A stretch of DNA of 23,914 nucleotides, taken from contig QLUP01000004.1 in assembly GCA_018725485.1 (NCBI GenBank), forward strand, positions 1 to 23,914, written 5' to 3'. This DNA comes from Candidatus Lithacetigena glycinireducens (GTDB lineage: Bacteria; Coprothermobacterota; HKB111). The notes under the pieces were generated by a model, which searched no databases, was not told the DNA's origin, and saw only the letters and a program-made list of their open reading frames with translations. Each line of letters opens with the position of its first letter. The first letter of the stretch is position 1. Shown here piece after piece: positions 17,115 through 23,914 of this stretch. Both the position numbers and the translations under genes were made by a program.

Positions 17115-17855
17115 TTGTTTATCATAGAAAGTATTGAAAGTATAACTGGTTTAGGGTTAACATTTTCAGCCCTCGCTTACTTTGGGCTGAATGCTTATGT
17201 TTATAGAAGTTACCCCCGCTCGGTTATCAGGAAAGGTTCTGCCCACTATAAAGGAGTATATTTTTCTTTTGATGATGGGCCTAATCCAAAATTAACCCCG
17301 CAGGTTCTAAATATCCTGGAAAAAAATAACACTTCAGCATGTTTCTTCTTAATTGGTAAAGAAGCAATGAAATATAAGCAATTAGTTAAAGAAATCAGAA
17401 AAAGCGGGCATATTATCGGAAACCACACCAAAAGTCATTACCTTTTACCTTTTCTATCTTCCAGAAAACTATTTAGAGAAGTAACCGAGGGAAAATTCAT
17501 CTTAGAAGACATACTCGGAGAAGAAGTTGACATATTTAGACCTCCGAGAGGTTTATTCGACCGAAGGGTGTTGAAATTATCCAGAAAATTAAACACCAAG
17601 ATAATCCTCTGGTCTTTAAGTAGTTATGATTGGACCGGGAGAAAGCCCAAAACATTATCAAACCATATTAAAAGCAAAATTAAAGATAGAGATATAATAC
17701 TGTTTCATGATGGGGGTTACCTTTTTGGTAAAGTCGGAGGAAGCAGAAATAATTCACTTGAATGCCTTAGCCATACCTTTAATATCTTAAAAGAGAAAGA
17801 TCTTAAGCCTTTGCCTTTTAACCTTATCCTTGAAAAACAGAAGGTTATCCGATAA
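17115..17855 (+). CDS. Polysaccharide deacetylase (NodB homology domain)
   Basis: This 246-residue carbohydrate esterase family 4 enzyme removes acetyl groups from N-acetyl sugars of peptidoglycan or a related polymer. A hydrophobic N-terminal stretch (about 8-28) suggests a membrane anchor or uncleaved signal. The NodB motifs are complete: SFDDGP (51-56, D53 catalytic and D54 metal), H104 and H108 in NHTKSH, RPPRG (142-146), YDW (171-173) and HDGG (198-201). The start is TTG at 17115; no ribosome binding site is visible, and an in-frame stop lies just upstream, so the N-terminus is less certain than the domain. It stands alone between the groE terminator and the converging transporter operon. 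The substrate is not assigned. Confidence 0.9.
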   Translation: MFIIESIESITGLGLTFSALAYFGLNAYVYRSYPRSVIRKGSAHYKGVYFSFDDGPNPKLTPQVLNILEKNNTSACFFLIGKEAMKYKQLVKEIRKSGHIIGNHTKSHYLLPFLSSRKLFREVTEGKFILEDILGEEVDIFRPPRGLFDRRVLKLSRKLNTKIILWSLSSYDWTGRKPKTLSNHIKSKIKDRDIILFHDGGYLFGKVGGSRNNSLECLSHTFNILKEKDLKPLPFNLILEKQKVIR

Positions 17856-17892: not shown

Positions 17893-18867
17893 TTATACTA
17901 AATGACAGGCTACAAAGCGATTTGGTCTAATCTCTCTAAGTTCAGGTACTTTTATTTCGCAGAGACCTGCTGTGAAGTTCTGGCAACGGGTATGGAACTT
18001 ACACCCTTTTGGAGGGTTAATGGGAGATGGAATGTCTCCCCTTAATATTATCCTTTCTTTTTTGATATCAGGGTCCGGGATAGGAACTGCAGATAATAAC
18101 GCCTGGGTATAAGGGTGAAGAGGTTGCCCGAATAACTTAGAATTTTCAGCATGCTCCATTATATTGCCGAGATACATAACCGCAATAGTATCGCACATTC
18201 TTTTTACCACACCAAGGTCATGAGCAATAAAGAGGAAAGTCAGGTTGAATTTACTCTGAAGATCGATAAGCAGGTTTATAATCTGGGCTTGAATTGACAC
18301 ATCCAGCGCTGAAACAGGTTCATCAGCCACAATAAATGCTGGATTTAAAGCTAAGGCCCTGGCAATTCCTACTCTTTGTCTTTGCCCTCCAGAAAATTCA
18401 TGAGGATACCTGCGGGCGTGCTCTCCTCTTAAACCCACTAATTCTAAGAGTTCTTGAACCTTGTGGTCCTTTTCTCTTCCCCGGGCAACTCCGTGAATCT
18501 CCATTGGTTCTCCTAACATCTCTCCCACGGTCATACGGGGGTTAAGTGAGCCAAAGGGATCCTGAAAGATAATCTGCATATATTTCCGCATAGGTCTCAA
18601 CTTACCGCGAGAAAGAGAGGTTATATCAACCCCATTGTATATAATCTTGCCTTTAGTGGGTTCGATTAAGCGAAGCAGGGTCCTACCAACTGTGGTTTTA
18701 CCACTTCCTGATTCTCCCACCAGACCCAGGGCTTCCCCTTTTCTGATTAAAAAAGAAACCCCATCAACAGCTTTGACCTGAGCCACTGTTCTTCCAAAAA
18801 CTCCACCGGTAATAGGAAAATATTTATAAAGATTTTTTACCTCGACTAATACATCATCGTTAGCCAT
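17893..18867 (-). CDS. dppF: Oligopeptide/dipeptide ABC transporter ATPase (DppF/OppF type)
   Basis: This 324-residue cytoplasmic ATPase powers peptide import. Motifs: Walker A GESGSGKT (51-58), Q-loop [15 protein letters not shown], signature [14 protein letters not shown], Walker B FIVADEP and switch His in FIAHDLG. The C-terminal peptide-transporter extension carries GCKFHTRC and further Cys residues, a conserved cluster of Opp/Dpp ATPases. It is the last gene of the operon, and its ATG overlaps the previous ATPase gene by 8 bases, with GGAGG about 8 bases ahead. It should pair with the DppD-type protein. Which oligopeptides or other ligands (for example nickel) are carried cannot be told from the ATPase. 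Confidence 0.95.
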
Positions 18868-19891
18868 TTTCTACGCCTCCTTCCGACAAGAAATCTTGCT
18901 TCCCTTTATGAAGGAATAACCAACAAGCAACTAATCTTTCACTGTTATCAATGCTGATTAATGGCGGTTCTTCCTTATCGCAACTATCCATTCTGAATTT
19001 GCACCGTGGGTGAAATCTGCAACCTGGAGGCATATTATAAGGATTGGGGACTACCCCTTCTATGGTAAGTAGTGGTTCTTTGCTCTTTCCTCTATCCAGA
19101 CGAGGGACTGAATAAAGCAGACCATAACTGTAAGGGTGTTGAGGAGTCTTAAATATTTCTCGAGCTGTAGCATATTCAACAACCTTTCCAGCATACATAA
19201 CCATGATATTTTGAGCCATTTCTGCAACAACACCTAAGTTATGGGTAACCAGCATAATGGCCATCCCTAATCTCGCCTTAAGTTCCTTCATAAGTTCAAG
19301 TATTTGAGCTTGAATTGTAACATCAAGGGCTGTGGTAGGTTCATCTGCAATTAATAAATCAGGGTTGCAAGATAAAGCCATAGCTATCATAACCCTTTGT
19401 CTCATTCCCCCGGACATCTGGTGAGGGTAGCTGTTTACCCTTCTTTCAGCATCGGATATGCCAACCAATTTAAATATTTGCACAACTTTATCAATGGCGT
19501 CTTTTTTAGATAGTTCCTGGTGTAATATTATTGCTTCAGAAACCTGGTCTCCTACGGTATAAACAGGGTTTAAGGAGGTCATGGGTTCCTGAAAGATCAT
19601 GGCTATATCTCCGCCCCTAACTTTCCTCATCTCGTCTTCAGGCTTTAGTAAAAGATTTTCTCCCTTAAAAAAGATTTCTCCCTCCAGAATTTTGCCTGGT
19701 GGTTGTTGTATTAATCTCATTATACTCAAAGAGGTGACAGATTTCCCGCATCCTGATTCTCCCACCACCCCCAGGGTTTCACCAGGCTTGATTCTCAGGC
19801 TAACCCTATCTACCGCAGGGACCACACCATCTTCAGTATAAAAGTAGGTCTTCAAATTTCTTACATCTACAAGGTAATCGTATTCAGGCAT
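18860..19891 (-). CDS. dppD: Oligopeptide/dipeptide ABC transporter ATPase (DppD/OppD type)
   Basis: This is the second ATPase subunit, 343 residues. Motifs: Walker [10 protein letters not shown]-loop [15 protein letters not shown], signature [14 protein letters not shown], Walker [13 protein letters not shown] and switch His in LVTHNLG. The C-terminal extension has [15 protein letters not shown], a Cys-rich segment that in some relatives binds an iron-sulfur cluster; that role here is inference. The ATG has GGAGG about 7 bases upstream, and 15 bases separate it from the permease gene. With DppF it forms the ATP-hydrolysing heterodimer beneath the two permeases. Confidence 0.95.
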
Positions 19892-19906
19892 TAAGAACCT
19901 CCACTA

Positions 19907-20824
19907 TTACAATTTCAGTCTGGGGTCAAGGGCATCTCTTAAACCATCACCTATAAAATTAACGGATAATGCTGTTAAAAGGATCATTAAGCCCGGATAA
20001 AAGGTTAACCACCAGGGAGGTCCTCCACCTTCGACAGGTGCTCCCAGGATGTATTCCATTGACCTTTGAAGCATATTACCCCACGAGGGAGTAGGTGGTT
20101 GAATACCCAAACCAAGATAGCTCAAGGCTGCTTCAAAAAGGATTACGCCACCAACACTTAGAGTTACGGAAACAATTAAGATCGCTAAAGCGTTAGGCAT
20201 GATATGTCTAAAGATAATTCTCCTGGAAGAGGCGCCTATGGCAAGAGCTGCTTCTACAAACTCGGACTCTTTTAGAGAAAGGAAGTAACCCCTGATAAGT
20301 CTGGATTCTCCCATCCAACCAAGAACAGTAAAGATGAGAATGATGTTCCACAAACTACCTCCAAAATACATAGCTAATAACATTAACAAAGGAAAGGTAG
20401 GAATTGATAAGAGCACATCTACCAGTCTCATTAAAACATTATCCAGCCATCCACCAAAAAAACCAGCTATACTACCAATAATAGCGCCTACTAACAATGA
20501 GGAAAGTGAAGCTATTACTGCTACAAAAAGGGACACTCTCCCTCCATAGGCCAGTCTTACCAGAACATCTCTTCCCAATTCATCTGTTCCCAGGATGAAT
20601 TTGCTGGAGGGCCGAGAGAACTTGTCTTCTAAGGAAATAGCATCAAAAGTATAGGGGCTGATTAGGGGAGCTATTATTGCAAATAAAACTATGAAAGTTA
20701 GTGTAACCAAACCACCGATAGCCATCCTGTGTCTTCTGAATCTTCTCCAAACAACACCCCAATAACTGTATTCTTTTTCAGATAAATCAAATTCGGTACT
20801 TTCAATTTTGGAAACTTTTGCCAT
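19907..20824 (-). CDS. dppC: Oligopeptide/dipeptide ABC transporter permease (DppC/OppC type)
   Basis: This 305-residue inner-membrane permease has about six hydrophobic segments. The N-terminal cytoplasmic tail is followed by a helix at about 35-57 and the OppC-typical FILGTDELGRDVLVRLAYGG. The ATPase-contacting EAA loop is EAALAIGASSRRIIFRHIMPN, and DALDPRLKL at the C-terminus is typical of the family. The ATG has GAGG about 9 bases upstream. It lies 17 bases after dppB and forms the translocation channel with it. Confidence 0.95.
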   Translation of the reverse strand: MAKVSKIESTEFDLSEKEYSYWGVVWRRFRRHRMAIGGLVTLTFIVLFAIIAPLISPYTFDAISLEDKFSRPSSKFILGTDELGRDVLVRLAYGGRVSLFVAVIASLSSLLVGAIIGSIAGFFGGWLDNVLMRLVDVLLSIPTFPLLMLLAMYFGGSLWNIILIFTVLGWMGESRLIRGYFLSLKESEFVEAALAIGASSRRIIFRHIMPNALAILIVSVTLSVGGVILFEAALSYLGLGIQPPTPSWGNMLQRSMEYILGAPVEGGGPPWWLTFYPGLMILLTALSVNFIGDGLRDALDPRLKL

Positions 20825-20841
20825 ATTTATCTATCCTCAAT

Positions 20842-21828
20842 TTAACTGAATCTAACTCGTGGGTCAACAACAGCGTACATTATGTCTGCTAACAAATTGG
20901 ACACAATAGTAAGGATGCATAAGAAAGTCAAGCAACCCACTGCCAGGTTAAAATCTTTACTTACAACTGCTGTAAAAATTAATCGCCCCATTCCTGGAAG
21001 CGCAAAAACTGTTTCGGTTATAATAGCACCTGCAAAAAGTGCCGGTAGAGTTAAGGCTACCAGGGTTATAAGTGGAATTAACACATTTCTGAAAGCATGT
21101 TTCCAGATAACCACTCTTTCAGAAAGCCCTTTGGCCCGGGCAGTTCTTATGTAATCCTGCCCTAATACTTCCAGTAGGGTGGACCTTACATAACGGGTCC
21201 AACCGGTCATTCCGGCAAGACCAAGTACTAAAACAGGTAAGATATGATGTTTAGCGGCATTTAATTGAAGGGTTATCCAGGGAACACCTTCTGGGAACAC
21301 AATACTGCTAAGGCCACCCATAGGCAATTCAATGGGTGTACCTCCCAGGTAAATTCCGAAAATCAAAATCAGCATAATCCCGAACCAGAATGTTGGCATG
21401 GAACGTCCAAAGAAAGCTAACCCTGTAAAAATATTATCCCAGCCGGAGTACTGTCTGCGGGCGGAAAAGATACCCACCGGCAGGGCTACCGCTAAACTTA
21501 CAGCCATTGCCAATAGGCTTAACCTCAAAGTAACCGGTATCCTGTGCAAAATTAAATCCCAGACAGGATAAGGGTGAAATCGAGCAACACCTAAATCCTG
21601 GTATCTAATTAATCTCCAGAACCATTTACCCCATCTTTCCAGGAAGGGACCGCCAACTCCGTAAATCTCCTTTAATCTTTCTATATCTTCCATTTTAATA
21701 TCAGGATCTAAGAGCAGGTGCTCTAAGGGGTCACCTGGAGCAAGGTCAATTATGAAATAGATGAGAAGGCTTACGGCTATAACTAGCGGGACGAGCTGTA
21801 ACAATCTTCTTATAAGATAATCGCGCAA
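20842..21828 (-). CDS. dppB: Oligopeptide/dipeptide ABC transporter permease (DppB/OppB type)
   Basis: This 328-residue inner-membrane permease begins with RRLLQLVPLVIAVSLLIYFI, the usual first helix, then APGDP, the periplasmic GDP motif of OppB proteins. The EAA loop is YIRTARAKGLSERVVIWKHA, and the C-terminus is DIMYAVVDPRVRFS, typical of DppB. The start is TTG at 21828 with GAGGTGA 7 bases upstream (21836-21842). It is separated from the binding-protein gene by a GC-rich hairpin, which may reduce permease expression relative to that protein. Confidence 0.95.
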   Translation of the reverse strand: MRDYLIRRLLQLVPLVIAVSLLIYFIIDLAPGDPLEHLLLDPDIKMEDIERLKEIYGVGGPFLERWGKWFWRLIRYQDLGVARFHPYPVWDLILHRIPVTLRLSLLAMAVSLAVALPVGIFSARRQYSGWDNIFTGLAFFGRSMPTFWFGIMLILIFGIYLGGTPIELPMGGLSSIVFPEGVPWITLQLNAAKHHILPVLVLGLAGMTGWTRYVRSTLLEVLGQDYIRTARAKGLSERVVIWKHAFRNVLIPLITLVALTLPALFAGAIITETVFALPGMGRLIFTAVVSKDFNLAVGCLTFLCILTIVSNLLADIMYAVVDPRVRFS

Positions 21829-21851
21829 ATTTCAGTCACCTCTCTTTCTGG

Positions 21852-21879
21852 AAAAGGGGGGTGGTGAAAACCACCCCCC
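21852..21879 (-). terminator. GC-rich hairpin between binding-protein gene and dppB (partial terminator)
   Basis: GGGGGGTGGT (21856-21865) pairs perfectly over ten bases with ACCACCCCCC (21870-21879) around a 4-base loop. On the transcribed minus strand the stem is followed by only TTTT, so it probably stops some transcripts and protects the 3' end of the binding-protein mRNA rather than ending the operon. A smaller CAGTT/AACTG hairpin lies just upstream (21886-21899). Confidence 0.7.
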
Positions 21880-21904
21880 CTTCATCAGTTCTTTAACTGT
21901 TGCC

Positions 21905-23914
21905 TTAACGCCAGTACCAATAGTAGGGGTTCCAGAGAACTCGCAAACCAGGTCTTACTGTAGCTATGTTAGCATGGTGGGCCATAACAGTAGAGCGGAA
22001 ATAGAGGGGGATAACGGGAAGTTCTTCACTTATCAGTCTTTGAACTCTGAATAATGCTTTTCTTCGTTCAACTTCACTCATAAGATTGGGTGCCTTCTTT
22101 AGAAGTTCGGTTGCCTCATCATTTTTCCAGAAGTAGACGTTTTGCCCTTCCCAGCCGACCTCTGGAGATGGTATCATATCACCTCTAAAGATAGTGTCAC
22201 CCATAGAAGTGGGGGACATGCTCCAGGCAAACATAATCAGATGAGGCCACCTTCGTCCATAGAAATGGTCTCTCGCAAATAGCACACCAGCTGGCATGTT
22301 TCTGGTTATATCCAGATCTATTCCAACCTTTTTGAGTTGAGCCTTGAGAACAGCTTGAACTGGTTGTCTCATAACCGGATCAATGGTGGTTCTAAGTTCT
22401 AAAGTTAGTCTCCTACCTGCTTTGTATCGCCATCCGTCAGGACCAAGTCTCCAGCCTGCTTCGTCCAGAAGCTTTCTCGCCAACTCTAAATTGTGCTCGT
22501 ATTTTATCGGTGCAGCATCATCATAACCCCAGTGCTCAGGAGGTAAGTAGCTATGAGCTACCGGTTGACGACCTCTAAAGAGTCTTTCCACCATCTCCCT
22601 TCGGTTGATAGCGTGGATAAAAGCTTTGCGTACCCTTAGGTCGATCATGGGGTTGTCGGGGTTTTCTAAGTTAACTCCTATATGCTCCCACGTAAGACTT
22701 CTGGCGAAATGAAGTTTAAGATGAGCTGGTCTCCGTTTCTCTAACGACATACCGTGAGTAAATGCTAGACCTACCTGGCAGGTTATGTGTACATCCTTCC
22801 CAGCGATGACCCGAGCTAAGAAAGCAGTGGTGTCAGGAATGAAGCGATGGATTATACGCCTTACTAACGGCTTTCCGAGAATGTAGTCATCAAATCTTTC
22901 TAAGGAAATAAAGCTGCCTGGCCTCCACTCCACTATCTTGTAAGGTCCCATACCGATGGGTTTACGGGCCATTACCTCGTTTATTCTGAAGTGGTCTACC
23001 CCAGCAGTTCCACCAATCTCCTTCATCCTCTTGTAGACGGGTTCAGTTACATGACGGGGATAGATACCCAGACCTGGTAGACCTAAGTTAGCTCGCCAGT
23101 CAAGCTCTTTAAAATAGACCCTTACTACATCAGGAGCTAAAAAGTCAAACCCCCGAATCCCATGGGCTCCAGTTCCTTTTTCAAAGTCTATCTTTCTTTC
23201 AATTACTCTAGCTACCACCGGAGTCATCTCGTCCATAAAGACCATGAAGTTGTAAGCCCAGTCATCCAAGGTTGCCGGTTTTCCATCGTGGAATTTAAGT
23301 CCAGGACGTTGCCTAAAGGTTATCTCCATGGCGTTCCCTACGACTTTCCATAGACCATTTTCCACCGTGGGAATTTCCCTGAGAGAGCCGGGGAATAGAG
23401 CCCAGTTCTCGTCCCTATGGGCAGAGGGCAGATCCACCATCCCCAGCAATGACCAGGCTGATAACATAGTGGTGATGTAGTGGTGTAAGGTATCAGGTTC
23501 CTGCCAGGTAGCTGTGCTAATGGTTCCCCCTTCTCTGGGAGGATTCATGATATGATAGATGCCATAAGCTACTTCTGCTCTCGTTGCAGGTGCCAACGGA
23601 GCAATCAAACGAAAGCCTGCTACGCTTCTATGACTTAGATACTGGTGCTCAGGCCTATAACCTAAGGTTACCCAACCCATTGCCCATTTCGGTATAGCAG
23701 CTTCGTCTTGGGCAAAAGCGATGGGGACGGTTATTTTAGCAGCTTCAGCAGCCAGACCTTTTGCCTGACCAAGAATGGCAGCTTTTTCTGACCGGTTAAC
23801 ATTGGCTGCTGGACGGAAGGTGCCATCGGGATAACCCCTAAGATAACCAGCATTTCGTGCAGCAACAATATATTCATAGGCATAATGAGTGGTAGGAACA
23901 TCTCTGAAGGGGCT
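21905..23914 (-). CDS. SLH-domain-bearing peptide-binding protein of ABC transporter (family 5; 5' end outside window)
   Basis: This extracellular solute-binding protein feeds the DppBCDF importer. The frame is open from base 23914 down to 21905 (669 residues visible); the Met at 23680 is internal, not the start. Visible residues 3-50 form an SLH repeat (FRDVPTTHYAYEYIVAARNA, then GYPDGTFRP and NRSEKAAILGQ). Residues about 61-122 form a second, divergent repeat (IPKWAMGWVTLGY, then APATRAEVAYGIY). The family 5 binding domain follows from about 125 (GGTISTATWQEPDTLHHY) and includes FRQRPGLKFHDGKP and a C-terminal aromatic stretch. SLH repeats normally bind pyruvylated cell-wall polymers, so this protein is probably fixed to the wall or S-layer. 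A third SLH repeat and a signal peptide would lie outside the window. By eye the gene is richer in G+C than its neighbours. Confidence 0.93.
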   Translation of the reverse strand, partial: SPFRDVPTTHYAYEYIVAARNAGYLRGYPDGTFRPAANVNRSEKAAILGQAKGLAAEAAKITVPIAFAQDEAAIPKWAMGWVTLGYRPEHQYLSHRSVAGFRLIAPLAPATRAEVAYGIYHIMNPPREGGTISTATWQEPDTLHHYITTMLSAWSLLGMVDLPSAHRDENWALFPGSLREIPTVENGLWKVVGNAMEITFRQRPGLKFHDGKPATLDDWAYNFMVFMDEMTPVVARVIERKIDFEKGTGAHGIRGFDFLAPDVVRVYFKELDWRANLGLPGLGIYPRHVTEPVYKRMKEIGGTAGVDHFRINEVMARKPIGMGPYKIVEWRPGSFISLERFDDYILGKPLVRRIIHRFIPDTTAFLARVIAGKDVHITCQVGLAFTHGMSLEKRRPAHLKLHFARSLTWEHIGVNLENPDNPMIDLRVRKAFIHAINRREMVERLFRGRQPVAHSYLPPEHWGYDDAAPIKYEHNLELARKLLDEAGWRLGPDGWRYKAGRRLTLELRTTIDPVMRQPVQAVLKAQLKKVGIDLDITRNMPAGVLFARDHFYGRRWPHLIMFAWSMSPTSMGDTIFRGDMIPSPEVGWEGQNVYFWKNDEATELLKKAPNLMSEVERRKALFRVQRLISEELPVIPLYFRSTVMAHHANIATVRPGLRVLWNPYYWYWR

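Follow-up and report, generated by a model that had tools for sequence, protein, structure and literature searches.

The receptor of an ABC importer has to make contact with the membrane permease; in the textbook cases, it is either lipid-anchored or free in a periplasm. Among the family 5 (cluster C) solute-binding proteins (SBPs), the known Gram-positive receptors are held at the membrane by a lipid anchor, whereas their Gram-negative counterparts move freely in the periplasm, and the operons encode two permeases and two oligo_HPY ATPases alongside. SLH wall proteins such as B. anthracis Sap (3pyw, 6bt4) and P. alvei SpaA (6cwf, 7sv3) carry three SLH repeats that form one trimer; their cargo is a lattice protein or a hydrolase, and the genomes of their hosts contain CsaB and a TagA-type enzyme. 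A review ties CsaB, TagA and SLH binding together (PMC6801904). Nutrient capture on the Gram-positive cell surface is represented by Bacillus cereus IlsA, which captures iron from heme and ferritin (PMC2777315). IlsA is not known to be the SBP of an ABC importer.

In the locus described here, it is the SBP itself that bears the SLH trimer, and its gene stands together with those of its permease. The window analysed is an entire contig of 23,914 bp, taken from a draft genome of 1.24 Mb in 204 contigs that is 83% complete. Its host belongs to the 'Ca. Lithacetigenota'/Coprothermobacterota branch and is not an ordinary Gram-positive bacterium. The likeness to AppA (1xoc), Thermus OppA (2d5w) and Opp4A/DppA receptors comprises the SBP fold along the whole domain, as well as the accompanying permease and ATPase genes, and the likeness to Sap and SpaA comprises the three-repeat trimer and a genome encoding both CsaB and a TagA-type enzyme. 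In contrast to AppA/OppA/DppA-type receptors, the fusion contains no Cys and carries its SLH trimer at the N-terminus, after a type I signal peptide (as read from the ortholog); in contrast to Sap- and SpaA-type proteins, the cargo of the trimer is an importer receptor. The SLH-SBP fusion is real and conserved. Its parts are known, and their combination is new in the open-access literature searched, in which no description of SLH-SBP fusions, or of Coprothermobacter with SLH or an S-layer, was found.

Table 1. Features of the SLH-SBP fusion gene and the adjoining importer operon, in window coordinates.
Feature	Position	Strand	Basis or remark
SLH-SBP fusion gene	21905..23914	(-)	669 aa in window; 5' end cut by contig end; ~87 residues missing
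SLH repeat, second of three, GYPDGTFRP and NRSE motifs	23786..23911	(-)	Pfam PF00395 aa 2-43, E 4e-10
Divergent third SLH repeat, TRAE motif	23543..23722	(-)	Alignment and AF2 model; Pfam gives no score
Family 5 solute-binding domain, Opp4A/AppA-like	21908..23539	(-)	PF00496 core 22301-23350; almost no linker after third SLH
Strong G/C intergenic hairpin, SBP stop to dppB	21853..21882	(-)	Folding of gap
DppB/OppB-type permease	20842..21828	(-)	PF00528 E 1.5e-41; Opp2B/Opp4B best NCBIfam models, below equivalog cut-offs
DppC/OppC-type permease, Opp4C-like	19907..20824	(-)	PF00528 and OppC_N; Opp4C 336.5 bits vs cut-off 350
DppD/OppD-type ATPase	18860..19891	(-)	ABC_tran and oligo_HPY; OppD/DppD best NCBIfam models
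DppF/OppF-type ATPase	17893..18867	(-)	ABC_tran and oligo_HPY; PRK11308 407.9 bits vs cut-off 408

A previous, sequence-only reading of this DNA held that the frame remains open upstream of an apparent Met at 23680 as far as the edge, that it encodes an SLH repeat with a GYPDGTFRP motif, and that the SLH part is joined directly to a family 5 SBP. All three points are borne out. The 669-residue frame is free of stop codons as far as the window edge, and because the window spans the whole contig and the contig ends there, the gene is incomplete at its 5' end. Pfam scores the SLH repeat at 39.8 bits (cut-off 20.8) and SBP_bac_5 at 182.8 bits (cut-off 32.4; aa 189-538, E 1e-53), with the two parts almost linker-free. 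The DNA pattern for GYPDGTF occurs once, where none would be expected by chance. An independent start at ATG 23680 is rejected, since a search upstream of this codon revealed no ribosome binding site and the preceding codons are conserved as protein. Specifically, the 78 codons 5' of the ATG encode a stretch that is 83% identical to the ortholog from the same genus, and the 56 base differences between the two are distributed 8/8/40 over codon positions 1/2/3, which argues that this stretch is protein under purifying selection. Judged by this pattern of substitution, the SLH part upstream of ATG 23680 is real protein. Both observations that had been named beforehand as grounds for abandoning the fusion, a start with a ribosome binding site near 23680 together with a stop or frameshift just upstream, and the lack of an SLH profile match, were looked for, and neither was made.

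The portion lost at the contig end can be read from an ortholog in the same-genus 'Ca. Psychracetigena formicireducens' BS5B28, which comes from serpentinite springs and belongs to the candidate phylum 'Ca. Lithacetigenota' (PMC9751293). The ortholog comprises 754 aa and is 60% identical to the window protein, with an identity of 58% in the SBP domain and the higher value given above in the SLH region upstream of the Met. Residue 1 of the window protein aligns to residue 88 of the ortholog, so the window copy lacks both its signal peptide and its first SLH repeat. Both of these elements, which the sequence-only reading had proposed to look for in a longer sequence, are present in the ortholog, where the order is signal peptide, three SLH repeats in total, and SBP. 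Its N-terminus, VKRLIGLTVAGLLVISIFSSLGFANAQ, is devoid of a lipobox, and the signal peptide ends ANA-Q. No Cys occurs in the complete ortholog or in a complete paralog from the window's own genome, so the lipobox Cys of Gram-positive SBP lipoproteins is absent from both; the window copy's own N-terminus is missing.

Pfam scores two SLH repeats in the full ortholog, with the third falling below scoring. Modelled with AF2, the SLH region of the ortholog (pLDDT 87.1) consists of three helix-loop-strand-helix units. It superimposes on the Sap SLH trimer 3pyw with a Z of 21.6 (175 residues, 2.5 Å), the match extending over residues 1-186 and all three repeats, and on the SLH part of SpaA solved with pyruvylated ManNAc with a Z of ~21. 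The modelled trimer thus matches the Sap and SpaA wall-polysaccharide anchors. The stretch with the TRAE motif, originally taken for a second SLH repeat, folds as one in the model, and its rank is corrected to third of three.

The border between the SLH and SBP parts was set partly from a plasmid search, because the matches, all of them SBPs of other bacteria, in most cases start at about residue 126-130 of the query. The nearest structures of the SBP domain are those of Thermus OppA with a pentapeptide (2d5w) and B. subtilis AppA with a nonapeptide (1xoc). A full-length AF2 model of the ortholog, which has a modest mean pLDDT of 66.7 and was used for the SBP fold alone, shows a two-lobed cluster C SBP fold with a Z of 30.4 over 473 residues to CtaP (5isu). 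On the Opp4A NCBIfam model NF045467, the window SBP scores 146 bits, far below the equivalog cut-off of 650; the protein may act like Opp4A but is not classed as Opp4A. By homology, an oligopeptide is most likely the ligand of the window SBP.

The fusion gene is located directly upstream of dppB-C-D-F both in the window (17893-23914) and in the same-genus genome (L053), and both loci have the gene content of an Opp/Dpp-type ABC importer operon: an SBP, a pair of permeases and a pair of ATPases. The permease and ATPase proteins of the two operons share 85-93% identity. Downstream of the fusion, Caldisericota loci carry dppBCDF (L058, L062), dppBCD and a cut dppF (L057), dppBC (L055), or a dppB at the contig end (L056). 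Folding of the gaps between the SBP and dppB genes revealed a stable hairpin in every one (energy z of -3.9, -2.1, -4.2, -2.3, -1.4 and -4.4, values that are not all independent). The hairpins differ in sequence from one another and recur at this position in related operons from two phyla. Hairpins after SBP genes boost SBP over permease expression, and the hairpin in the window would likewise raise the amount of receptor over that of permease. The G+C content is 47-49% in the SBP gene, 41-43% in the dpp genes and 38% in the remaining contig (1-17800). A polysaccharide deacetylase gene (17115-17855) is convergent with the dpp operon, and the same-genus genome has a counterpart at the equivalent position (L053 12235-12975); the deacetylase could modify the wall polymer.

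In an inventory of the window's own genome based on family searches, only two family 5 SBPs were detected in the 83% complete draft, and both are SLH fusions. The second of these is the complete paralog mentioned above (L051 145-2403, contig C169), a protein of 752 aa with signal peptide, SLH repeats and SBP. The space between its gene and the contig end is too small for a permease gene, and the paralog may use the DppBCDF of the window. The only other SLH protein detected is propeller-like and has three C-terminal SLH repeats (L007 1-1668, contig C140). A gene for a possibly propeller-like protein (L045 11695-13758, a weak match) adjoins the SLH-SBP genes in Coprothermobacteraceae, and the same-genus genome encodes a 5'-nucleotidase-like protein with an SLH repeat (L141 43-2091, contig C112), another nutrient-scavenging function on a wall anchor. 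A CsaB-type pyruvyl transferase, which the sequence-only reading had proposed to look for, is encoded in the window's own genome (TIGR03609, 261.8 bits; curated cut-off 213.1), and a WecG/TagA-family gene adjoins csaB on contig C194.

Lgt is present in seven of eight genomes, namely in all seven relatives, the same-genus one included; it was not found in the window's own genome, whose completeness of 83% means that this absence is not evidence. Because the relatives have Lgt, lipid anchoring is available and SLH anchoring is not forced. The idea that the SLH anchor substitutes for a lost lipoprotein pathway is rejected on the same count. One Caldisericaceae genome has both anchor types, with a lipoprotein SBP (VTFAGC) alongside two SLH-SBPs.

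The spread of SLH-SBP_bac_5 fusions, which the sequence-only reading had left to a survey, was assessed by running a profile of the SLH-SBP joint over 386 genomes. The architecture was found in three phyla, Lithacetigenota, Coprothermobacterota and Caldisericota, with several loci beside permease genes. The same joint was restricted to these groups, plus one vestigial form in genome G199, and nearly all remaining profile matches cover the SLH end alone or the SBP end alone. The G199 protein (L097 172-2268) is a 698 aa SBP with a signal peptide and a vestigial SLH-like N-terminus below Pfam SLH scoring, perhaps a decaying fusion. Within Coprothermobacteraceae, fusions occur in isolate Ch108 and as a tandem pair in genome G002, presumably C. 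proteolyticus. The protein of C. platensis DSM 11748 shows the SBP and third repeat, its first part being masked or cut. The tandem genes of G002 (L045 6587-11559) are similar and have no permease genes nearby.

A tree of the SBP domains contains two supported SLH clades. The first such tree apparently needed six label changes, and the unlabelled rows within its SLH clades are truncated or masked. In a reduced tree, which leaves out the truncated or masked rows and one long-branch row and includes fewer outside rows, two changes are needed, and a single SLH clade has an AU p of 0.41. By these trees, one origin of the SLH-SBP fusion is not rejected and not proven.

Several other explanations of the locus were considered. 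Because the gene abuts the end of a contig and the draft consists of 204 contigs, one might suspect that two genes had been joined falsely during assembly or gene calling. However, codon-position bias persists across the joint, and the same architecture recurs in the independent same-genus genome, in Coprothermobacteraceae contigs of 1.42 and 1.00 Mb (complete or long) and in Caldisericota; an artefact is refuted by these independent assemblies, and its probability is practically nil. Another proposal would be that the SBP fold now serves as a building block of the surface or S-layer, or traps peptides passively, and that ligand is no longer passed to a permease. The Coprothermobacter tandem genes and the own-genome paralog, all orphans with respect to a permease, speak for this proposal, as do the better conservation of the SLH part relative to the SBP part and the small number of other SLH proteins in these genomes. 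We consider it unlikely, given that the fusion heads a permease operon with a recurring hairpin in both Lithacetigenota and Caldisericota and that a complete family 5 domain is kept, with good scores to Pfam and to peptide-bound structures.

If the cell did have an outer membrane, the SLH trimer could simply fasten an ordinary periplasmic receptor to peptidoglycan or its polymers, and the delivery puzzle would disappear. The solved SLH relatives include SLH domains from diderm proteins, among them the structures 8bz2 and 8bym, which are presumably OmpM-type entries. In one taxonomic paper, the envelopes of Coprothermobacter and Caldisericum are called negibacterial and relatively normal, with an outer membrane that stains weakly, and no LPS enzymes are reported for Caldisericum (PMC7203096). 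Against an outer membrane, a search for Omp85 homologues gave no match in eight genomes (the window's own and seven relatives, several near complete), whereas 7 of 14 controls, Thermotoga maritima included, were positive; a standard outer membrane is therefore unlikely. Moreover, no SLH-porin look-alike was seen among the SLH proteins inspected, many of which are visible only in part. A periplasmic receptor tied in this way appears quite improbable.

The reading that we prefer, with a probability of about 0.62, is that of a non-lipidated oligopeptide receptor that forms a wall-bound pool and feeds a DppBCDF/Opp4-type ABC importer. What is observed is the domain order, the Cys-free ortholog and paralog, the dppBCDF operon, CsaB, the lack of detectable Omp85, and the recurrence in three phyla; we infer the wall anchoring, the ligand and the delivery to DppBC alike. 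Counted against the receptor reading are the SLH-SBPs without an adjacent permease (the C169 paralog and the Coprothermobacter tandem pair), Lgt in the relatives, the negibacterial envelope described for relatives (PMC7203096), and the Opp4A score of 146 vs 650.

In the proposed working of the receptor, the product of the fusion gene would be the ligand receptor of the Opp/Dpp-type importer and would be secreted through its type I signal peptide, without lipidation. The SLH trimer would grip a pyruvylated cell-wall polysaccharide made by CsaB and the TagA-like enzyme, keeping the receptor outside the membrane, and the hairpin between the SBP and dppB genes would lead to the synthesis of more receptor than permease. 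The resulting pool would be concentrated in the wall zone as a pseudo-periplasm, where loaded receptors near enough to the membrane would dock on DppBC. A non-covalent grip and the flexibility of the polymer would permit receptor exchange, by analogy with the free periplasmic receptors of Gram-negative cells. The almost linker-free joint between SLH and SBP parts may restrict reach to the membrane.

A receptor held non-covalently by a wall polymer and encoded with its permease in three related, little-studied phyla would open reach and exchange to direct testing, for which cultured relatives are available. With regard to the host, the paper describing 'Ca. Lithacetigenota' reports neither a glycine nor a formate transporter and leaves ABC transporters out of account (PMC9751293), which makes the window importer a candidate amino-acid or peptide route; GrdB is present in the window's genome, and a role of DppBCDF as such a route for the phylum is speculation. 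More generally, and tentatively, it is possible, if somewhat doubtful, that the deep-branching Lithacetigenota, Coprothermobacterota and Caldisericota import peptides via a polysaccharide-tethered, exchangeable receptor pool that replaces lipid-anchored receptors, and that these lineages would share one ancient fusion and a wall-based pseudo-periplasm, with no normal outer membrane.
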